From an uncultured Lachnospiraceae bacterium (GTDB taxonomy: Bacteria; Bacillota; Clostridia; Lachnospirales; Lachnospiraceae): a stretch of 43,876 nucleotides of DNA. The translations under genes and the position numbers were made by a program. The DNA lies in assembly GCA_949472775.1 (NCBI GenBank), contig CASWVG010000020.1, forward strand, positions 1 through 43,876. The letters are read 5' to 3'. The number at the start of each line of letters is the position of its first letter. Positions within the stretch are counted from its first letter, which is position 1. Under the pieces are notes generated by a model that saw only the letters and a program-made list of their open reading frames with translations, was not told the origin of the DNA and ran no database searches. Shown here piece by piece: positions 4,352 to 43,876 of this stretch.

Positions 4352-5963
4352 ATTTATAAAAGTAGTATTGTCGCTGTCTGTTTCCGGCACACTGTTACTG
4401 CTTCTCCTATGGGGAGTGAAGCCTCTGTATAAAAACAGATTCAGCAAGCGTTGGCAATATTATATCTGGATAGTTGCTGTGTTGCGGTTTCTGCTTCCCT
4501 TTACGCCTGATACTACGATTGTTGGGAGCTTATTTGAAGGGTTCGACAGTGCGGCAATAGCGAATGAAATCCCTGCAAGCCCCGACGTACCTGTTCCCGC
4601 AGGTATGGGTAAGAGCCAGGCGGAGCCGATACAAACAAACCGGGAAATAAATGCCGCTGCCATGCGGGAGCCATTTAACAAATATATCTGCCTTTTTTTA
4701 ATCTGGTCAGTATTGGCACTGGTTCTGTTTGTCCGTAAGATAACGGTTTATCAAGGATTGATCCAATACATCAAAGCGGGAAATAAAGAGGTGTCGGATA
4801 TAAAAATTTTGAATCTGTTATCTGATTGTGAGGAAAAACTGAATATTAAGACAAGGGTCGAATTGTCCTACAATTCGTTGATTACCTCACCTGTTATGAT
4901 CGGATTCTTTCGGCCGAGAATTGTTTTGCCTGTCCGTGAATTGGAAGATAAAGAGCTGTCTTATATCTTTTTGCATGAGCTGACTCATTACAAGCAGGGG
5001 GATATGTTTTATAAATGGATGATACAGATTGTTGTGTGCGTCCATTGGTTCAATCCTTTTGTATATTTGCTGGAAAAGGAAGTGAATAAATCCTGTGAAT
5101 TGTCATGTGATGAAAAAGTCATATCCTCACTTGAGGAAAACGCAAGGCGCGAGTACGGTGATACATTAATTGCTTTTTTGAAGTCAGATAATCCTTATAA
5201 AAGTTCTTTAGCTTCTGTTACTTTGACGGAGGGAGCGGAACAATTAAAAGAAAGGCTGGGTGCAATTATGAAATTTAAAAAGAGTTCAAAAACGAATATT
5301 GCTATTACAACAATATTCACGTTTGTAGTCGGTTTCTGTTTTTGGACGATTGGGGCGTATGCGGTACCTGTTACTGATAGTAAATCCTTGCCTGGATGGG
5401 AAAAGCAAGCGGCAATGCTGCCTCCGGATTTGACGATTCGTATTGATGATGCGCCCGTACTAATAGAGAATAAGGATACGGATATAATATCCGCGTCATA
5501 CAATCCGAGATATTATGACGTTTCTATCAATCAGTCCTCAGAGGGGGAATGGAGTGTTGATATATCAGTGGTTCATTCAAATACGAATAAATCGATGATC
5601 CTCTATATTCCTAATGTAGAATATAATTCCGTAAAACTTGAGATAGATAACGGAATGTATTCTGGTGGAATTTTGAATGCAAAGAGTATCATTGCCAATG
5701 TTGATAATGGCGGGCTTGATTTTTCACTGAGCAGAAACTTTGACGGCTCGGTAAAAGCAGACGTATTTAATTCCATATTCCATTTAATGTCGCTTGAAAA
5801 TTATGAGAATTTTAATGTAGAAATAATTAGTGATAGCGAGTCATTATGCGATGTACCAGGTTATTTTGAATGGATAAATGAAAAATATATTTATGCTAAT
5901 GGCACGGGTACAAATCTGATGAATATTTCTTTACGAGGAGGAAGTGTTGGAAGTTTTGAGTAA
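4344..5963 (+). CDS. BlaR1-like M56 membrane metalloprotease with a non-PBP sensor domain
   Basis: The start is ATG 4344, overlapping the repressor gene; 539 residues. Membrane helices lie near residues 5-28, 40-55 and 115-135, with a fourth near 330. The zinc site HELTH is at 211-215, with the third-ligand motif ELSCDE about 40 residues later, as in M56 peptidases. Signal binding outside the cell activates the cytosolic protease, which leads to cleavage of the BlaI-type repressor. After the last helix the ~190-residue external part lacks penicillin-binding motifs (no SxxK/SxN/KTG) and reads as repeated short beta strands, reminiscent of DUF4097-like beta-solenoids. The signal is unknown. There is no resistance gene immediately downstream, so the regulated target may be the operon itself or lie elsewhere. 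Confidence 0.85.
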   Translation: MNEFIKVVLSLSVSGTLLLLLLWGVKPLYKNRFSKRWQYYIWIVAVLRFLLPFTPDTTIVGSLFEGFDSAAIANEIPASPDVPVPAGMGKSQAEPIQTNREINAAAMREPFNKYICLFLIWSVLALVLFVRKITVYQGLIQYIKAGNKEVSDIKILNLLSDCEEKLNIKTRVELSYNSLITSPVMIGFFRPRIVLPVRELEDKELSYIFLHELTHYKQGDMFYKWMIQIVVCVHWFNPFVYLLEKEVNKSCELSCDEKVISSLEENARREYGDTLIAFLKSDNPYKSSLASVTLTEGAEQLKERLGAIMKFKKSSKTNIAITTIFTFVVGFCFWTIGAYAVPVTDSKSLPGWEKQAAMLPPDLTIRIDDAPVLIENKDTDIISASYNPRYYDVSINQSSEGEWSVDISVVHSNTNKSMILYIPNVEYNSVKLEIDNGMYSGGILNAKSIIANVDNGGLDFSLSRNFDGSVKADVFNSIFHLMSLENYENFNVEIISDSESLCDVPGYFEWINEKYIYANGTGTNLMNISLRGGSVGSFE

Positions 5964-6051
5964 TATACGCCCGGTTATCACCGTTTCCCCGGTCAATGAT
6001 GAATCACTCTCTAAAGTTTGTAGCAACCTCAATCCGATTGTATTTTGTCTG

Positions 6052-6080
6052 ATCCGCTTTCCCATATGGGGGAGGCGGAT
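6052..6080 (+). terminator. Hairpin after the BlaR1-like gene
   Basis: ATCCGC (6052-6057) pairs with GCGGAT (6075-6080), and the inner CCCATATGGG is self-complementary. Only a short TTTA follows, so it is a weak intrinsic terminator candidate at the right edge of the AT-rich region. The rest of 5964-6239 shows a possible promoter (TTGTAA at 6146-6151, 17 bp, TACCAT at 6169-6174) for the next gene. Confidence 0.35.
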
Positions 6081-6239
6081 TTATGAGTAAAATTAAAACT
6101 GATGAAAGAAAGATATGAGTAACCGTTGCAGTGAAGGGAATCTCATTGTAAGGGCAGTTGTTTTGTGCTACCATAAACACATAAAATGGACTTTTGCAGG
6201 GAAGCGTAATAAACTTGGGAAACCGACAGGAGGATCATC

Positions 6240-7625
6240 ATGGGAATTTCAGCAGGCTTCATGGTGCCGCACCCGCCGCTCATCATACCCGATGTGGGCA
6301 AAGGTGAGGAGAAGAAAATTCAGAGGACAATCGATGCGTACAAAAAAGTGGCGGAGGCGATCGGTCATCTGCAGCCCGAGACCATTGTGCTCCTTTCCCC
6401 GCACCAGATCATGTATGCGGACTATTTTCACATTTCGCCAGGGAAGGGGGCAAGAGGTGACTTTGGGCAGTTTCGCGCCGGACGGACTTCCATGGAAGTT
6501 TCCTATGACACGGAATTTGTCCGTGTGTTGTGCGAGGCTGCGGAGGATATTGGTTTGCCGGCGGGGACGTTGGGAGAACGGGAGAAGAAGCTGGATCATG
6601 GCACCATGGTGCCCCTGTATTTTGCAAATCAGTTCTGGACAGGATACCGTCTGGTGAGAATCGGTCTGTCGGGCTTGCCTTTGGCGGCGCATTACCGATT
6701 GGGACAGTGTATCCAGGCGGCAGCACGGACGCTTGAGAGGAATACGGTGGTGATTGCCAGCGGCGACTTGTCCCATAAACTGAAGGAGGACGGACCCTAC
6801 GGCTATCAGGAGGAGGGACCTGTCTACGATGGGCGGATCATGGACGTGATGGGCAGGGGTGATTTTGGGGAGCTGCTGGAATTTTCGGAAGACTTCTGTG
6901 AGAAGGCGGCTGAGTGCGGGCACCGTTCCTTTACCATCATGGCGGGTGCGTTTGACCGAACGGGCGTGGAGGCAGAGCGGCTTTCCTATGAGGGCCCTTT
7001 CGGGGTGGGGTATGGCGTCTGCTCCTATCGTCCCTGCGGCGATGACGGCACACGGAATTTTCTGGAGCAGTATGAGGAGAAGGAACGGAAGGAGATTCTT
7101 GCAAGGCGGGAAAAGGAAGACGCATACGTCAGGCTGGCGAGGTACACCATTGAGGCGTTCGTAAAGACGGGGACGCTTCCTGAGATGCCGCAGGGACTGC
7201 CGGAGGAATTGTACAAAAGCAGGGCGGGCGCGTTCGTGTCCCTGAAGGAGGACGGAAGGCTCAGAGGCTGTATCGGCACCATCCGGGCGGTCAGAGAATC
7301 TCTTGCAGAAGAGATCATGCGCAATGCTGTCAGCGCCTGTTCGGAGGATACCAGATTCTCTCCTGTGGAGGACTGGGAGGTGGAGCGTCTGACGATCAGC
7401 GTTGATGTGCTAGGGGAGACGGAGAAGATTGCCTCGCCTGAGGAACTGGATGTGACCCGGTACGGCGTCATTGTGACAAAGGGCGGAAGGCGTGGGCTGC
7501 TGCTGCCCAATCTGGAGGGCGTGGACACCATAGAGGAGCAGATCGCCATAGCGAAGCAGAAGGCGGGAATCAGAGACCATGAGAGCGTGGAGCTGGAACG
7601 GTTTGAAGTGATACGGCACCACTAA
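6240..7625 (+). CDS. amrA: AmmeMemoRadiSam protein: fused Memo-like (B) and AMMECR1 (A) domains
   Basis: The start is ATG 6240 with AGGAGG just upstream; 461 residues. Residues ~1-270 are a Memo/class III extradiol-dioxygenase-like domain: MVPHPPLI at the start carries a metal-ligand-type histidine, and SPHQI, DHGTMVPLYF and SGDLSHKL follow as in Memo proteins. Residues ~290-460 are an AMMECR1 domain with AFVSLKEDGRLRGCIGTIRA and the VEELTISVDVL-like stretch. The two domains are separate genes (amrA, amrB) in some organisms and fused in many Clostridia. The system is named from co-occurrence with a radical SAM enzyme, which follows here. The biochemical function is unknown; redox or RNA-modification roles have been discussed for the family. 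Cytoplasmic. Confidence 0.92.
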   Translation: MGISAGFMVPHPPLIIPDVGKGEEKKIQRTIDAYKKVAEAIGHLQPETIVLLSPHQIMYADYFHISPGKGARGDFGQFRAGRTSMEVSYDTEFVRVLCEAAEDIGLPAGTLGEREKKLDHGTMVPLYFANQFWTGYRLVRIGLSGLPLAAHYRLGQCIQAAARTLERNTVVIASGDLSHKLKEDGPYGYQEEGPVYDGRIMDVMGRGDFGELLEFSEDFCEKAAECGHRSFTIMAGAFDRTGVEAERLSYEGPFGVGYGVCSYRPCGDDGTRNFLEQYEEKERKEILARREKEDAYVRLARYTIEAFVKTGTLPEMPQGLPEELYKSRAGAFVSLKEDGRLRGCIGTIRAVRESLAEEIMRNAVSACSEDTRFSPVEDWEVERLTISVDVLGETEKIASPEELDVTRYGVIVTKGGRRGLLLPNLEGVDTIEEQIAIAKQKAGIRDHESVELERFEVIRHH

Positions 7626-36855: not shown

Positions 36856-39024
36856 TTATTCCTTATAGTTGATCCACTTCAGCTCCATAGGAGCGAGATC
36901 GAGATGCATTTTGAGAACGCCGTCCATGTAGAGGTCGGTTTTCTTCTGTTCCTGAGTATTGTTGATCACGGCAATCATCCCCATCTTTTCAAAGACAGCG
37001 ATCTCGGTTTCCACATCGGTGACGTAGTACTTTTTCATCTCCTCTTCTCTGTGGGCCGCATAGTAGATGGCGCGCAGCAGAATGCGGCAGTTCTGCGGGG
37101 AGTAGGGCAGTCCCGTGAAGTAGACGCTGCGTCCCTTGCCGTATTCGTTGACCACAAGACGGCTGTACTTACCGTCCATATCGAGAATCTGGTAGTTTTC
37201 ACCCTGGGCGTAGATGCGGCTCTTTCCTTCGCCGAAATCAATGCTGCCTGTCACATCTTCCAGAATAAAGTGCTCCCTGTTCAGCTCATTGTACTTGTCG
37301 GTGCTCATGGAGAAGCCCAGCTCTCTGTCCACGCCGAGAACGTCACTCAACTGGAAGTAGCGTCCCTGATACTGGCAGGCAGTGGGTTCTCCCACGCCGA
37401 TAAAGCCGCCGCCCTCATCCACGAAACGGCGCAGGGCGCAGACCAGTTCGGGATCTTTCCAGACCTCGCCGCCGCTGAAAGCGGTGTAAGCATCCCCGGC
37501 GTTAATGATAACCCGGATGGCCGGATCAATTCCCTGTTTCATCTCATCGAAAGTAATAAACTCCACATCGATGGGCATGCCGCTCAAGGCCTCAATCACA
37601 CCTACATAGGAATAGATTTCGCGGTACCAGAGAGCGTGGTGCACCTGGTTTGCCATCCAGCGGCGAAGATTTCCCCAGCTGTTGAGGACAGCTACCTTAA
37701 AGGGTGCGGTGTATGCCTGGGATCCCTGCATGTTGGCATGGATCTGCCGGAACTCCGTTACAACTTGACTAATGCGGTCAATAAAGCCGGGCCACTCGTT
37801 TGCCAGTTTCAGATAGCCGCCGTAGCCGATCCGGTCCACGGGGGAGCGCAGGATTGCCCGGCGCGCTTTCATCCAGTTGTCTTTCGACTCGCCGATGGGA
37901 TCACCGCCTTCGGTGAACACATCCGGGAAGAAGTAGGGCAGAAGCCGGCCTTCCGTATAAGTTACGCCCTGTATGTCGGAGATCATGCGCAGGGTGACGC
38001 CGTCTCCCACGGATCCTACCACCGCATCCAGTCCGATGTTTTTAAAGTATTTGCCGAAAGGCTCTGTGCCGATCCAGTGGTCGCCTAAAAACATCATGGC
38101 TTCCTTGCCGTAGCTGTGGACAATATCAACCAGCTCTTTGGCAAGCTTGCTCACCTCAATCTGCTGAAATTCCACAAAGTCTAAGAACTGCTTTGAGGGG
38201 CTGCGGAAGATGGAGTTGTGGTAACCTTGGTCCACAATGTATTCCGGGCGGAACGGGTAGCCGGCCCACTTTTCAAACTGCTCCAGAATATAGGGGCTGA
38301 CGCTGGCGCTGTAGCCGAACCATTCCACGAATTTTTCCCGCTTCTGGTCGTCAAAGGTCAGAGTGAACTGGTGGAAAAAGGTCGTGAAGCGCACCACGTC
38401 CACACTGGGATTTTCCTCACACCAGCGGCGCAGCTTCTCCTTCACATAAGCCTGTGTCTTTGGCTGGCGCACATCAAAGGTGAGCTGGTGCGGGGCGTCT
38501 TTCCAGTCGTTGGTGATAAAGTTGTACATATGCACGGGATCCCAGATCAGGAAAGCAAGAAAACTTACGGTATACTGATGATAGGGAACGGTGTCGATCA
38601 CCACTTCGCCCGTGCTCTCATCGTACTGCCAGTGGTCTGTGGAGACAATCTCCCCCGTGGTTCTGTCGATGACTTCCCACCAGCGTTTGGGGTCGTCGAT
38701 GGTATTCACCTTAAGCTGCTGTGTGTGAAATCCTTTCATCAGGCGGATGCGCAGGGATTTGTCCCTGGCAGTCACCCGGTCGCTGATCAGGTATTCCTGC
38801 TGGATTTCTTCGGGATTTGCCTCAGCCCAGGCATTGTCCTTTCTGGTGGTGTAGTAGGTGGCGTAGATTTTCGCGTCCTGGGACAACAGCGCCTCGGGCA
38901 TGTCCGTCCCGTCGCAGTCCCGCAGGGCGTCTGCGCCCAGAAGGTTTTTGAGGCGTATGGTTTCTTCCACCATATCCACATCGGTAGGCAGCGTCAGCCG
39001 CCCGGTAAGGTTTTTTTCTTTCAT
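36856..39024 (-). CDS. GH112 phosphorylase (galacto-N-biose/lacto-N-biose type)
   Basis: ATG 39024 has GGTGA 5 bases upstream; an ATG four codons earlier overlaps the AGGA. 722 residues, the usual length for GH112. The TIM-barrel contains PSVDVVRFTTFFHQFTLTF, YIVDQGYHNS, FLGDHWIGTEPFGKYF and VVGSVGDGVTLRMISDIQGV, all conserved in 1,3-beta-galactosyl-N-acetylhexosamine phosphorylases. The enzyme splits galacto-N-biose or lacto-N-biose with phosphate to galactose-1-phosphate and the N-acetylhexosamine. Some GH112 members act on galactosyl-1,4-rhamnose instead, which cannot be excluded. No sugar transporter, kinase or mutase of the pathway is next to it, which is unusual. Confidence 0.92.
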   Translation of the reverse strand: MKEKNLTGRLTLPTDVDMVEETIRLKNLLGADALRDCDGTDMPEALLSQDAKIYATYYTTRKDNAWAEANPEEIQQEYLISDRVTARDKSLRIRLMKGFHTQQLKVNTIDDPKRWWEVIDRTTGEIVSTDHWQYDESTGEVVIDTVPYHQYTVSFLAFLIWDPVHMYNFITNDWKDAPHQLTFDVRQPKTQAYVKEKLRRWCEENPSVDVVRFTTFFHQFTLTFDDQKREKFVEWFGYSASVSPYILEQFEKWAGYPFRPEYIVDQGYHNSIFRSPSKQFLDFVEFQQIEVSKLAKELVDIVHSYGKEAMMFLGDHWIGTEPFGKYFKNIGLDAVVGSVGDGVTLRMISDIQGVTYTEGRLLPYFFPDVFTEGGDPIGESKDNWMKARRAILRSPVDRIGYGGYLKLANEWPGFIDRISQVVTEFRQIHANMQGSQAYTAPFKVAVLNSWGNLRRWMANQVHHALWYREIYSYVGVIEALSGMPIDVEFITFDEMKQGIDPAIRVIINAGDAYTAFSGGEVWKDPELVCALRRFVDEGGGFIGVGEPTACQYQGRYFQLSDVLGVDRELGFSMSTDKYNELNREHFILEDVTGSIDFGEGKSRIYAQGENYQILDMDGKYSRLVVNEYGKGRSVYFTGLPYSPQNCRILLRAIYYAAHREEEMKKYYVTDVETEIAVFEKMGMIAVINNTQEQKKTDLYMDGVLKMHLDLAPMELKWINYKE

Positions 39025-39213
39025 TTGAGTCACCATTCCTGTTTGAATTTTCTTTGTTGCATTTGTTTTCCGTATTTAATTCCTGCCCATATTACTATTA
39101 ACGAATGTTTTTTATGTTTCGTCTTTCAGTATATGCGCTGGTTTTATATCTATCTTTGCCAGTAGGGAAGCTGAATAACTGAAAAGGCGCAGACTCTGGT
39201 CAGGCTGCCCGTT

Positions 39214-39834
39214 TTATTCCGAAAGATTCAGGTAGCTTAACGTGCCTTCGGGAAGCCCCGTTCCCTGTTCCAACAGGGAGATCAGTCCTCGTATGGTGTA
39301 TTCACAGTCCTCCGGCGTGGTGGATAGAAAGGTGTTGTTCAGCTTTACGCCGAGGACAATCAGTACGATTTCCGCAAGCGCCTCCGGATAGTCGAAATGG
39401 ATTTCTCCGGCGGCAATGCCCTGTCTGATAATTTTCGCCAGATTCGGCTTTAATTCCGAGATCAGGTAATTTAAATATTTCTGATGCAGATAAGCGGATT
39501 CCTGTATCGTGATGGCTCTGCTTTTTTCATTGCCCTGTTTCAGAAAAGCGGCGGCGGAACTGCGGCATGCCTGAAACAGCATCGCCATCCGTGTAAAGGG
39601 CGGGATATCTGTCTGACCGGCAAGGTTTTTTGCGGTCAGTAAAGGCGCTTCATAATTTCTTCTGATCAGTGCGTCTAAAATTGCCTCTTTTGACGGAAAA
39701 TAATAATAGATGCTGCCCTTGCCGATGCCGGCTTTGGCGGCAATGTCGCTGACAGAGATATTCTGTATGCTCTTATCGATCATAAGCTGCTGGAGCGCGT
39801 CCAGAATTCTGTCATATTTTTGTGTGTCTGCCAT
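39214..39834 (-). CDS. TetR-family regulator divergent from the SCP2-like gene
   Basis: ATG 39834 follows AAAGGTG; the longer frame to 39867 has no ribosome site. 206 residues. The DNA-binding domain has NISVSDIAAKAGIGKGSIYYYFPSKEAILDALI. It is transcribed away from the SCP2-like gene. The 225-bp spacer contains two GACC-x3-GGTC palindromes in the other gene's promoter, so it probably represses that gene and maybe itself. It lies 189 bp upstream of the phosphorylase on the same strand, but a shared role is not evident. Confidence 0.93.
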   Translation of the reverse strand: MADTQKYDRILDALQQLMIDKSIQNISVSDIAAKAGIGKGSIYYYFPSKEAILDALIRRNYEAPLLTAKNLAGQTDIPPFTRMAMLFQACRSSAAAFLKQGNEKSRAITIQESAYLHQKYLNYLISELKPNLAKIIRQGIAAGEIHFDYPEALAEIVLIVLGVKLNNTFLSTTPEDCEYTIRGLISLLEQGTGLPEGTLSYLNLSE

Positions 39835-39944
39835 GATGAGCACCTTTCTGGTTGAATATGATGTCATTCATTTTATCATAGTTTAACGGCGCGGACAATC
39901 GCTGGCGGGAAAAAGTATTTAAATAAATACATTCCATAAACCGG

Positions 39945-40003
39945 TTGACCGTGGGTCGAAAAATATGGTATTGTTAGAGAGGATAAAATCGACCGCAGGT
40001 CGA
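39945..40003 (+). promoter_or_regulatory. Promoter with two TetR operators for the SCP2-like gene
   Basis: Site 1, TTGACC-GTG-GGTCGAA (39945-39960), contains the -35 TTGACC; -10 TATTGT lies at 39969-39974. Site 2, TCGACC-GCA-GGTCGA (39989-40003), is a perfect palindrome just downstream of the start. The arms match, so one regulator should bind both and block initiation. Confidence 0.75.
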
Positions 40004-40060
40004 AAAACGTAAAAGTGAGAGAGAAGGGAGCGAAGACTCCCGCTAGGAGGAAAGAGTAAA

Positions 40061-40444
40061 ATGACATACGCAGATTTTTTCTACGACATTAAGGGAAGAT
40101 TTATGGGCGCGGATGTGAGCGACATCCATGAGCATCTGGCTTTTGAGTTTGATATCGAGGACGAGGAAGCGGGTGGTTCTTTCTATGTGGAAGTGAAGGA
40201 CGGTACGCTCTATGTGGAGCCTTACGAGTACTACGACAGAGACGCGAGATTCATCTGCACGCCAGATGTGCTTGTAAAGATTGCGGAGGGTGAGATGGAT
40301 CCCGTGTGGGCGTTCACGACCCAGAAACTGAAAGTGGAGGGCAATATCGATAAGGCGCTGCGCTTGAAGGAGATCATTGAGTCCAAGCAGCGCGAGATGA
40401 AAAAAGCGGCTAAGCAGGAAGAGAAGAAGGCAAAGAAAGGTTGA
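40061..40444 (+). CDS. SCP2 sterol-binding-domain protein
   Basis: The start is ATG 40061 with AGGAGG upstream; 127 residues. The single SCP2-like fold is visible in HLAFEFDIEDEEAGGSFYVE, then DGTLYVEPYEY and DARFICTPDVLVKIAEGEMD with the following hydrophobic-tunnel helix (PVWAFTTQKLKVEGNI). A Lys/Glu-rich tail ends the protein. The family binds lipids, sterols or acyl-CoA. It is controlled by TetR sites in its promoter. Neighbouring alpha/beta hydrolase, condensation-like and acyl-carrier genes suggest lipid or acyl-chain handling. Confidence 0.88.
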   Translation: MTYADFFYDIKGRFMGADVSDIHEHLAFEFDIEDEEAGGSFYVEVKDGTLYVEPYEYYDRDARFICTPDVLVKIAEGEMDPVWAFTTQKLKVEGNIDKALRLKEIIESKQREMKKAAKQEEKKAKKG

Positions 40445-40615
40445 ATAAATACTCAGAAGAGCAATTGTTTCAACCGGGAATTTAAGCCGGCACAAATGCA
40501 TTTGATCGCGGAGCAGAATCGGAGTATTCCTTTGGAAAACCCTTGAAGTCTGCCCGCGTTTCTGGAGTATGCCTGTCGACAAATTTTGCATAAAGGGCTT
40601 CGGAATGGAGGAAAA

Positions 40616-41578
40616 GTGAGTAAAAAAAAGGGAATTCTGAAAAAGACAGTGCTGGGAGCGGGACTTCTGGCGGCGGTATGCGGCGGTGAGATCGCCTATT
40701 TTTACGGGCGCACCATGAAGCGCGGCAGGGCAAAGACCGAGCGGACCATCAAGATGTCGGGCACGGACTGGAGTCAGTACATGCCACTGATGGAAGAGCG
40801 CAAGGCGGCTATGCTGGCAAGGCCCCACGAAGATGTGTGGCAGACGAGTTTTGACGATCTGAAACTGCACGCCACCTATTTTCCGGCGCAGGCGCAGCAG
40901 GGAAAACAGAAGCTTGTGATCTGCTTTCACGGTTACACGAGTCAGGGGATGTCCGACTATATCGGTCTGTCAGATTATTATCAGAAGAGAGGTTTTGCCA
41001 TGCTTTTGCCGGATGCGAGAGCGCACGGTGAAAGTGAGGGAGAATATATCGGCTTCGGATGCCTTGACAGGCAGGACGCGCTTGGCTGGATCAGATGGGC
41101 GGTTGAGAAGCTTGGTGAAGAGACGGAGATTCTTCTGCACGGCACCTCCATGGGTGCGGCAACGCTTCTGATGCTGAGTGGATTAAAACTGCCGGAACAG
41201 GTGAAGGGTATTGTTTCCGACTGCGGTTTTACATCCCCGAAGGAAGTGTTCACCCATGTGCTTCACACCATGTATCATCTGCCTGCCTTTCCCATTATAC
41301 CGGGAGCGGATCTGGTGAACAGGAAGCTTGCGGGTTACGGCATGGATGAGTGCAACGCAAGGCGGGAAGTGGAGAAGGCTAAGGTGCCGATTCTGTTTAT
41401 CCACGGTGGGAACGACACTTTTGTGCCATGGCAGATGTGCCACGATATTTATGAGCACTGCGCTTCTCCAAAGAGCAAGCTGATCGTTGACGGCGCGGCA
41501 CATGCGGAGAGTTACTACAAGGATATGGAGAGCTATGAGGCGGCTCTCACGAAGTTTATCGGTGAAGTGATGGCGTGA
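40616..41578 (+). CDS. Membrane-anchored alpha/beta hydrolase
   Basis: GTG 40616, four bases after GGAGG, is preferred to an ATG frame at 40586 that crosses the ribosome site. 320 residues. An N-terminal helix (VLGAGLLAAVCGGEIAYF, about 11-28) anchors it. The nucleophile elbow is LHGTSMGAATLLML (Ser in G-T-S-M-G). The acid is in GGNDTFVP and the catalytic His in GAAHAESYYKD. The substrate is not clear; serine hydrolases of this type act as esterases, lipases or thioesterases. It lies upstream of the condensation-like gene on the same strand. Confidence 0.9.
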   Translation: MSKKKGILKKTVLGAGLLAAVCGGEIAYFYGRTMKRGRAKTERTIKMSGTDWSQYMPLMEERKAAMLARPHEDVWQTSFDDLKLHATYFPAQAQQGKQKLVICFHGYTSQGMSDYIGLSDYYQKRGFAMLLPDARAHGESEGEYIGFGCLDRQDALGWIRWAVEKLGEETEILLHGTSMGAATLLMLSGLKLPEQVKGIVSDCGFTSPKEVFTHVLHTMYHLPAFPIIPGADLVNRKLAGYGMDECNARREVEKAKVPILFIHGGNDTFVPWQMCHDIYEHCASPKSKLIVDGAAHAESYYKDMESYEAALTKFIGEVMA

Positions 41579-41605
41579 GAAGTATTTCTAAAGGTTCCCA
41601 GTTGA

Positions 41606-41624
41606 ATCGCAGAAAAGCTGCGAT
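41606..41624 (+). promoter_or_regulatory. Hairpin directly before the ribosome site of the condensation-like gene
   Basis: ATCGCAG (41606-41612) pairs perfectly with CTGCGAT (41618-41624) around AAAAG, ending two bases before AAGGAGG. It may regulate translation or be part of a leader. Confidence 0.5.
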
Positions 41625-41637
41625 AAAGGAGGTAGTG

Positions 41638-43032
41638 ATGAAGACAAGAAACGGACACAAGACGTATCCCCTTACGGTGGCGCAGAAGTTCCATATTTTT
41701 TACATGGATTTCTGCCCAAAGAAAGAGGTTGTAAATATCGGCACCAGTCTGACCATTGAGTATGAGCTGGATATCGAGGAGCTGAAGCGTGCGGTTTACA
41801 AGGCGTATGAGCGCTGTGAGTCCATGCGGGTGCGCTTTGCCTACGATAAGAAAGAAGAGCAGTGGTATCAGTATGTGGTGGAGAAAGAAGAGCGTGATAT
41901 CGAGTACGTGGACTTCACGGGTAAAACCATGGAGGAAGCGGCTGAGATTATGACAGGCTGGACACGGGTGCCTTTCCAGAGAGAGGACAGCCCGCTGAAC
42001 CGGGTAGTGATGATTAAGACGCCGGACGGCTGTCAGGGGCTTTATGTGCTGGGAGACCATATGCTGATGGACGCACAGTCACTGATCTGCTTCCTGCGGG
42101 ATGTGATTGAGCTTTACTGTAACGTCAAATTTGAGTATGGCTATCCGCTCGATATGCGTTCTTTTACTGAGCAGTTGGAAAAGGATCTTGCATACGAGGC
42201 GGGAAGCAAAGCGCAGGCAAGGGACAGAGAGTACTTCCAGAAACTGATCGGAGAGTCGGAGCCGATTTTTAACGGCATTGAGGGTCCGGGTCAGCTGGAG
42301 GAAGCGCGGAAAAAATTCCCCGGGACAAGGGCAGCTTTTTCCGCCACTGCAAAAGTGGATTCGGCGCTGGATATCTTCCATCTGGAAGAGGAGCCGACCC
42401 AGAGGCTGATGCGCTTCTGCGAGGAACAGCACATTTCCCTGCAGTGTCTGCTGATTATGGGCATCCGCACATACCTGCAGAAGATGAACGGCAACGACGA
42501 CGTGTCCATTAACGTGGCGTATGCGAGACGCGCTACCCTTCTGGAGAAAAAGTCGGGCGGTACGAGAATCCACTCCTTCCCGTTCCGGACAATTCTCTCC
42601 GAGGAACAGACCTTTATGGAGGGCATTCTTGCGATCCGCAACGGGCAGAACGAGGTGTTCCGCCATACGAATTATAACCCGGTGGAATATTTCGCTTACA
42701 GAAGCAAGCTTTACAATACGCCGCAGGGCGCCACTTATGAGCCCATGTCCCTGACCTATCAGCCCATGACCTTAAAGGAGAAGGGCTTAGATCAGCTCGG
42801 GGATATCCGATATAAGACAAAATGGTATCCCAACGGGGCAACCACGCAGGCAATGTATCTGACAGTGATGCATCGCCCCGACGACAACGGACTGGACTTT
42901 AACTTTGAGCATCAGGTGGCGGCGGTGAGCCGCGAGACGCTGGAGCGTTTCTACTATTACATGTGCAAGATCATGTTCAAGGGAACCGAGAACCCGAATC
43001 TGAAAATCGGGGATATTATAAAGCTGATATAA
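41638..43032 (+). CDS. Stand-alone condensation-domain-like enzyme
   Basis: ATG 41638 follows AAGGAGG; the ORF also extends to an ATG-less upstream region. 464 residues, the size of one NRPS condensation domain plus flanks. The N-terminus has PLTVAQKFHIFYMDF as in C-domains. The active-site motif HHxxxDG appears as D140-H141-x3-D145-A146, so the catalytic His and Asp remain while the first His and last Gly are changed. Late in the sequence, DDVSINVAYARRATLLEKKS and GLDFNFEHQVAAVSRETLERF match the C-domain floor loop and end. It should join an acyl or aminoacyl group on a carrier to an amine or alcohol. A free-standing ACP follows. Confidence 0.85.
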   Translation: MKTRNGHKTYPLTVAQKFHIFYMDFCPKKEVVNIGTSLTIEYELDIEELKRAVYKAYERCESMRVRFAYDKKEEQWYQYVVEKEERDIEYVDFTGKTMEEAAEIMTGWTRVPFQREDSPLNRVVMIKTPDGCQGLYVLGDHMLMDAQSLICFLRDVIELYCNVKFEYGYPLDMRSFTEQLEKDLAYEAGSKAQARDREYFQKLIGESEPIFNGIEGPGQLEEARKKFPGTRAAFSATAKVDSALDIFHLEEEPTQRLMRFCEEQHISLQCLLIMGIRTYLQKMNGNDDVSINVAYARRATLLEKKSGGTRIHSFPFRTILSEEQTFMEGILAIRNGQNEVFRHTNYNPVEYFAYRSKLYNTPQGATYEPMSLTYQPMTLKEKGLDQLGDIRYKTKWYPNGATTQAMYLTVMHRPDDNGLDFNFEHQVAAVSRETLERFYYYMCKIMFKGTENPNLKIGDIIKLI

Positions 43033-43059
43033 CGGTTCAGCCAGACCGGATCTGTAAGA

Positions 43060-43179
43060 CAAATCGTATTTTTACGAATTTGATGTACAGATAAAGGGCT
43101 GAGGGAACGCCGGCTTTAATGAGCCGATCGAGCTTTGCGAAATCTATAGCTGCAAAGCAGTGGAGAGCGCAGTGTGCGC
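43060..43179 (+). other. Run of four stem-loops before the carrier-protein gene
   Basis: Hairpins: CAAAT-CGTA/TACGAATTTG (43060-43082), CGGCT/AGCCG (43111-43126), GCTTTGC/GCAAAGC (43132-43158) and GCGCA/TGCGC (43167-43179). They fill the 209-bp gap between the condensation-like gene and the ACP gene. No T-run follows any of them. They could set the ACP:enzyme ratio by processing or attenuation. Confidence 0.5.
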
Positions 43180-43241
43180 GATTTTGTGGCTGGCTTGGGT
43201 TGGACGTAAACAGAGCAAAAAGAAAGGGAGGTTAACATAAC

Positions 43242-43463
43242 ATGTTTGATCAATTAGCGGAAATCATTACGAACTATGTGGAAGTGAAGAAGGAAGATAT
43301 CAGGCCGGAGTCCCGGTTTATGGAAGATCTCGGTTTTTCCTCTTTCGATTTTATGAGCATGCTCGGCGAGGTGGAGGACACCTTCGACGTGGAGATCGAG
43401 GAGGAGAAGGCTGCGGGCATCCGCACGGTGCAGGAGGCAGTGGATTATCTCGAGAGTTTATAG
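43242..43463 (+). CDS. Acyl or peptidyl carrier protein
   Basis: The start is ATG 43242 after AGGGAGG; 73 residues. It shows the four-helix carrier fold. Ser34, in DLGFSSFDFM, is the likely phosphopantetheine site (the usual DSL is SSF). Helix III carries VEIEEEK. The separate D-alanyl or peptidyl carrier type (about 75 residues) fits better than a fatty-acid AcpP. It lies between the condensation-like gene and an AMP-ligase, so it probably shuttles the activated acyl group between them. Confidence 0.9.
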   Translation: MFDQLAEIITNYVEVKKEDIRPESRFMEDLGFSSFDFMSMLGEVEDTFDVEIEEEKAAGIRTVQEAVDYLESL

Positions 43464-43495
43464 GACTCGTTGCGGCAGAAGGGTGAGGATAAGAT

Positions 43496-43876
43496 ATGAA
43501 TGAATTCAGCAGTACCATCAGAGAAATTTTAGTCAAGGCGTCAAAGGCTTACGGACCGCAGGATGCGATCCGCTATAAGGCAAAGCGTGACAAGGGCAAC
43601 GGTAAAACAGAGACGGTTGTGGAGGCGAAGACATACACGCAGCTTAGAGAGGACAGCGAGCGCTTTTCGGCGGCTCTTGACGGGCTGGGTGAGAAGGGGT
43701 CCCATATCGCGATTGTGGGCGACAACTCCTATCCGTGGATCGTATCCTACTACGGCACGGTGAATGGCGGCAGCGTGGCGGTACCGCTGGATGCGAACCT
43801 GCCGGCAGAAGAACTGTGCGAACTGATCGACCGTTCGGACGCGACGGTGCTTGTCTACGACAAGGCGCGCGAGGCG
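43496..43876 (+). CDS. AMP-dependent synthetase/ligase, 5' part (runs off the edge)
   Basis: ATG 43496 follows GGGTGAGGAT; the frame is open to the last base (127 codons). The visible N-terminal part matches adenylate-forming enzymes: AIRYKAKRD, TYTQLREDSERFSAALDGLG, HIAIVGDNSYPWIVSYYGTV and GGSVAVPLDANLPAEELCEL. The phosphate-binding loop and A8 motif lie beyond the window. It should activate an amino or fatty acid and load it onto the carrier protein 32 bp upstream. Confidence 0.85.
   Translation, partial: MNEFSSTIREILVKASKAYGPQDAIRYKAKRDKGNGKTETVVEAKTYTQLREDSERFSAALDGLGEKGSHIAIVGDNSYPWIVSYYGTVNGGSVAVPLDANLPAEELCELIDRSDATVLVYDKAREA

Follow-up and report, generated by a model that had tools for sequence, protein, structure and literature searches.

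The right end of the window, which here denotes the whole of contig C20 (CASWVG010000020.1, 43,876 bases) in the 3.36 Mb genome of an uncultured Lachnospiraceae bacterium (GCA_949472775.1, assembly 84.55% complete), carries an operon that probably serves the synthesis of lipid amides (N-acyl amides) and brings lipid-handling proteins and a repressor of its own. Open reading frames and Pfam matches show a divergent gene for a TetR-family regulator, followed on the forward strand by genes for an SCP2-like protein, an alpha/beta hydrolase (ABH), a condensation enzyme (C), an acyl carrier protein (ACP) and the beginning of an AMP-forming ligase (A). A first-pass annotation, made from the letters alone, had described these five as a single run resembling a minimal, non-modular assembly system, with the HHxxxDG motif altered to D-H-x3-D-A. 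All five are matched by Pfam, the motif reads D-H-M-L-M-D-A, and the core corresponds to the systems of stand-alone ligase, carrier and condensation enzyme that make fatty-acid amides (FAAs) in gut Clostridia. The likely starts of ABH (GTG at 40616) and C (ATG at 41638), judged by eye from ribosome-binding sites, are not those of the longest reading frames.

The closest chain to C in the PDB is 12KH, with 457 residues matched at an E value of 2.7e-109; the next chain lies at 2.4e-9. In PMC13142362, the 12KH structure is assigned to Coprococcus eutactus OaaC, a stand-alone enzyme that couples a carrier-bound acyl chain to a free amine, and amide formation was reported in vitro for OaaC together with OaaA and OaaACP (PMC13142362). 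OaaC forms a homodimer that is opened by the holo or acyl carrier. The two enzymes are 40% identical. In the 127 condensation domains of FAA systems described by the same source, (D/H)HxxxD is followed by Ser (42%), Ala (36%) or Gly (17%) (PMC13142362); the DHMLMDA of the window's C fits this pattern, and DHxxxD(A/S) was found in 104 of 110 aligned C proteins. Catalytic residues are intact. C is a single-domain protein of 464 to 485 residues, depending on the start codon, and the sole PF00668 match in the genome. The helix insertion of OaaC (Gln214-His224) is shared by the window's C and all 10 further stand-alone C proteins displayed with it, whereas L036, the only modular C in the alignment, lacks it. 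In a quick tree of 49 rows, OaaC fell with most of a group of C proteins at 32-37% identity and the window's C with the group at 55% identity or more, while L127 and the single modular C, used as outgroup, lay outside both on long branches. Since the tool warned of these long branches, the tree serves as support only and is given moderate weight. On sequence, C groups with OaaC and apart from modular condensation domains.

Carrier and ligase are encoded by separate genes beside C, as in the FAA systems that resemble nonribosomal peptide synthetases (NRPS), and the genome encodes a phosphopantetheinyl transferase. The best PDB matches of the ACP are fatty-acid ACPs. Contig C98 of the same assembly opens with the 55 bases on which the window closes, and a 407-residue frame on C98, with a Pfam AMP-binding match and 92% identity to the ligase of the congener L023 (residues 110-515), supplies the remainder of the ligase. 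The top NCBIfam model for the full ligase of a congener is a long-chain-fatty-acid ligase, at 270 bits and below its cut-off of 476. A DUF6033 gene on the opposite strand comes next on C98, as it does in L023. The operon therefore comprises five genes plus TetR, and the ligase is its last gene. The expectation that the cluster continues past the window was thus only just true, holding for the rest of the ligase and for nothing beyond it. A paralogue of ABH (33% identity) adjoins the phosphopantetheinyl transferase gene at L154 (G000:C8:1-3000).

The arrangement is widely kept among relatives. Within the genus (25 genomes, own included), C was found at 65% identity or more in 14; all 13 congeners carry ABH-C-ACP-A, 10 also have SCP2 and nine have TetR, and one locus without SCP2 and TetR is truncated by a contig end. 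A scan of named species genomes returned 262 stretches with relatives, the best 80 of which were kept as loci, with record titles that include Roseburia, Blautia, Eisenbergiella, Fusicatenibacter and Lacrimispora. Among these 80, ABH is present in 80, SCP2 in 77 (two of the three misses lie at a contig end), and ACP and A in 79 each (the one miss at a contig end), and TetR stands beside the operon in 66, with eight of the 14 misses at a contig end. Relatives have the genes in the same order and on the same strand, so that the gene run is not due to chance. At L030 (6022-9342), a 94-residue piece of C and a second ABH frame precede the intact C, which looks like a partial ABH-C duplication.

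A family set of 298 genomes, own included and the others filtered at 90% completeness, gave C at 55% identity or more in 30 genomes (one a partial match), and 13 further matches at 32-37%; the remaining matches do not exceed 30% and lie mostly in long open reading frames. ABH at 52% identity or more occurs in exactly the same 30 genomes as C and adjoins it in 30 of 30; the next ABH match is at 43%. SCP2 at 55% or more adjoins C in 28 of the 30, and one of the C genomes has a second SCP2 copy. Because ABH occurs only where C does and SCP2 also occurs without C, ABH is tied to C and SCP2 is a usual but separable partner; the suggestion that both could belong to the cluster is in this way borne out by synteny and co-occurrence, less tightly for SCP2. 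The model of ABH (mean predicted local distance difference test score, pLDDT, 83.2) has an esterase/monoglyceride-lipase fold, and the protein is probably membrane-anchored. The PDB matches of SCP2 are lipid carriers or lipid-binding proteins, all of them weak (best E 3e-6; rabbit SCP2, 1C44, E 4e-4). SCP2 relatives at 52-65% identity also occur at loci with no C operon nearby and with differing neighbours (L138-L148, including L147, G085:C35), and L138 and L142 retain TetR and SCP2 without C.

All 13 places with C at 32-37% identity (L117-L129) were examined. ABH adjoins C in L118 and L119, is one gene off in L117 and lies about 1.9 kb from C on the other strand in L121, so that it is within 2 kb of C at four of the 13; no ABH was found at the other nine. 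TetR-like genes lie near C in five of the group (L117, L118, L120, L121 and L123), and none of these five loci has an operator site of the type described below. L128 and L129 have C genes without a ligase alongside.

Two operators of TetR type, O1 and O2, lie between the TetR and SCP2 genes and flank a conserved promoter. The first-pass annotation had begun the run at position 39945, which is the first base of O1. In 71 regions between TetR and SCP2 genes, at least one site within two mismatches of TCGACCNNNGGTCGA is present in every case, and two sites 43-45 bp apart occur in 68, compared with an average of 0.4 of 71 in shuffled regions. Of 68 aligned promoters, 66 have the extended -10 element TGNTANNNT at the corresponding position (0.55 on average in shuffles). 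O1 and O2 are the only places in the bacterium's own genome with the exact pattern TYGACCNNNGGTCGA. Across the 298 genomes the exact operator pair occurs in eight, once each, seven times at a C operon and once at the apparently decayed operon of G063; the pattern is strict and misses 23 of the 30 C genomes. The G063 locus, L137 (G063:C9:84500-96500, about 5110-6849), has TetR, SCP2, a 158-residue ligase fragment and the operator pair, and no ABH, C or ACP. TetR would bind O1 and O2.

The chemistry of ligase, carrier and C is taken over from the OaaC literature by analogy. The ligase would turn a fatty acid into an acyl-AMP and load the holo carrier protein; C would then pass the acyl group from the carrier to a small amine that diffuses freely, releasing a fatty-acid amide. 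We infer the same reaction for this C, and with it the product and the amine, the roles of SCP2 and ABH, and the binding and ligand of TetR. SCP2 would most likely shuttle the fatty acid, the amide or both between membrane and enzymes, and ABH would most likely supply the ligase with fatty acids cut from glycerolipids, or would alternatively cleave the product. TetR, sitting on two operators around the -35 and -10 elements, would shut the operon until a lipid ligand arrives.

Several observations weigh against this reading or narrow it. An identity of 40% to OaaC allows another donor or acceptor, and the presumed acceptor-side segment differs, being WYPNGATTQAMYL in the window's C and WIPNGTSKQKIYL in OaaC. 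The ligase has malonyl-CoA synthetase as its best PDB match, falls below every curated NCBIfam cut-off among the 25 models listed, and is also matched by an amino-acid adenylation model (164 bits, cut-off 317). Six of the 80 loci have upstream sequence yet no TetR. At the places with C at 32-37%, ABH reaches 32-37% identity, a level that many unlinked paralogues equal or exceed, so that position alone argues for a link there. Where a genome offered more candidates, the searches of the 298 genomes scored only 5 to 7 of them, and weaker copies may be missed. Finally, SCP2 at 55% or more is present in 10 of the 298 genomes without a C of that level, three of which still have a TetR gene.

This last observation favours a different division of labour, in which the core makes N-acyl amides and SCP2, perhaps with ABH, handles a sterol or membrane lipid and shares only the promoter and regulator. 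It draws further on Blautia hominis HA2291, whose SCP2-like protein RS03310 is reported to rise with cholesterol, to bind cholesterol and to give NAD+-dependent oxidation, with the condensation-domain protein RS03300 as its predicted partner (PMC13029680, 2026). The full operon is carried by L086, whose record title reads Blautia sp. As RefSeq locus tags go up in fives, RS03310 and RS03300 leave room for one gene between them, which fits the order SCP2, one gene, C. The condensation-domain gene lies two tags from that of the SCP2-like protein, and RS03310 probably belongs to the same kind of operon. The difference is that RS03310 was interpreted as a cholesterol-transforming protein (PMC13029680). 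The pocket residues listed for RS03310 at 10, 21, 22, 28 and 30 are found in register in the operon SCP2 family, those at 101-109 mostly not, and at most six of the 11 match any one SCP2 sequence of the set, in a comparison with the residue list. An identity of 63% to rabbit SCP2 (1C44) is stated for RS03310 (PMC13029680), whereas the window's SCP2 matches 1C44 merely at E 4e-4, so that either RS03310 differs or the figure is another type of score. With this pocket comparison, and with no ABH at 52% or more without C among the 298 genomes, a separate sterol or membrane-lipid function for SCP2 is possible but rather unlikely.

A product other than an amide with a simple amine, namely a lipid ester or a lipo-amino acid, is improbable. 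The presumed acceptor-side segment does vary, both from OaaC and within the clade: among the 110 C proteins it is WYPNGATTQAMYL in 64, RYxNGYY in 10, WFANGAATKK in seven and WYCNGVCAH in four, and if the segment faces the acceptor, members of the clade would between them use more than one amine. PF00282 decarboxylases, which yield aromatic amines or γ-aminobutyric acid, were also looked for in the genome and not found, in an assembly that is 84.55% complete, and the amines may be external. Set against this, the characterised relatives make amides with free amines, as described in PMC13142362. One subclade (L029, L030, L032, L103 and L110) has DHRFLDA and has RYxNGYY in place of WYPNGAT, perhaps for another amine acceptor. 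D-alanylation or some other acylation of the cell wall, which had been named together with a fatty-acid operon as an arrangement that would undo the original proposal, is disfavoured and hardly credible. DltA and DltC are likewise a free ligase and a free carrier protein, and the DltA model does match the ligase weakly; however, the scores are 33.6 bits for the part in the window and 77.3 bits for the complete ligase of congener G024, where the cut-off is 559.85, and the operon has a C enzyme and no MBOAT or other membrane acyltransferase. A dlt-like set lies elsewhere, on contig C1 (L153, G000:C1:112000-120000), with an AMP-binding ligase, a PP-binding carrier and an MBOAT protein; its ligase scores 253.7 bits with the DltA model, also below the cut-off. 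A fatty-acid-synthesis operon was rejected as well, there being no fatty-acid-synthesis genes in the operon, and so was a modular NRPS, as C, A and carrier are separate genes and not one polypeptide.

The core belongs to a known kind of system. It has every feature of FAA systems that sequence can decide, and it shares with the OaaA, OaaACP and OaaC set of gut Clostridia the separate genes for ligase, carrier and C as well as the C sequence, motif and helix insertion. It differs in having SCP2 first, ABH beside C at every locus seen, a dedicated TetR with paired operators and another acceptor-side segment. The words 'hydrolase', 'sterol carrier' and 'TetR' do not occur in the main text of PMC13142362, and no description of the conserved six-gene form with its operator pair was found in the literature searched, which comprised a paper on an FAA condensation enzyme, the Blautia paper and reviews (among them PMC10191378 and PMC11979265) and did not cover Chang 2021 and Elmassry 2025. 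This form is a variant of the FAA systems already known.

A bolder version, offered tentatively and with doubts, would make the six genes a lipid-sensing make-and-break module. TetR would sense a host or dietary lipid, a membrane lipase would free the fatty acid, SCP2 would pass it to the ligase, C would form an amide from it and an amine so far not associated with the family, and SCP2 or ABH would export or destroy that amide; the cholesterol response of the Blautia SCP2 would then be the induction of FAA synthesis by a lipid signal. In this respect the operon gives an alternative reading of the published cholesterol-SCP2 result. Related gut bacteria make FAAs that resemble human signalling lipids, and gut-bacterial FAAs are described as acting on human G-protein-coupled receptors (PMC13142362). 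If the operon makes FAAs, the ability would be common to many Lachnospiraceae genera, two partner proteins that have not been studied would be named, together with a repressor and its precisely defined operator, and the regulation and turnover of such signals would become directly testable.

Table 1. Features of the operon and its control region, in positions of the window.
Feature	Position	Strand	Pfam match
TetR-family regulator, divergent, presumed local repressor	39214..39867	-	TetR_N, E 8.2e-15
Operator O1, TTGACCGTGGGTCGA, overlaps -35 box TTGACC	39945..39959	+	
Extended -10 element, TGGTATTGT	39966..39974	+	
Operator O2, TCGACCGCAGGTCGA, perfect 6+6 palindrome	39989..40003	+	
SCP2-like lipid carrier protein, 127 residues	40061..40444	+	SCP2, E 3.2e-14
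ABH, N-terminal hydrophobic helix, Ser-Asp-His triad	40616..41578	+	Hydrolase_4 (best model), E 1.6e-14
Stand-alone C, DHMLMDA, OaaC-like, presumed N-acyl amide synthase	41638..43032	+	Condensation, E 1.1e-37
ACP, 73 residues, DLGFSSFD around the presumed phosphopantetheine serine	43242..43463	+	PF00550 PP-binding, E 4.4e-10
AMP-forming ligase A, first 127 residues, rest on contig C98	43496..43876	+	AMP-binding, E 1e-16

A mobile origin was considered and rejected: no phage match was obtained, and the 38 plasmid records that match are all below 60% identity, with the ten listed at 21-23% and several annotated as NRPS. A 1,3-beta-galactosyl-N-acetylhexosamine phosphorylase was likewise set aside as an operon member, as it sits beyond TetR on the other strand and has no match in nine of the 13 congener loci (L025, L026 and L029-L035). 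Its gene occupies positions 36856-39036 of the window, scores 1064 bits and adjoins TetR.

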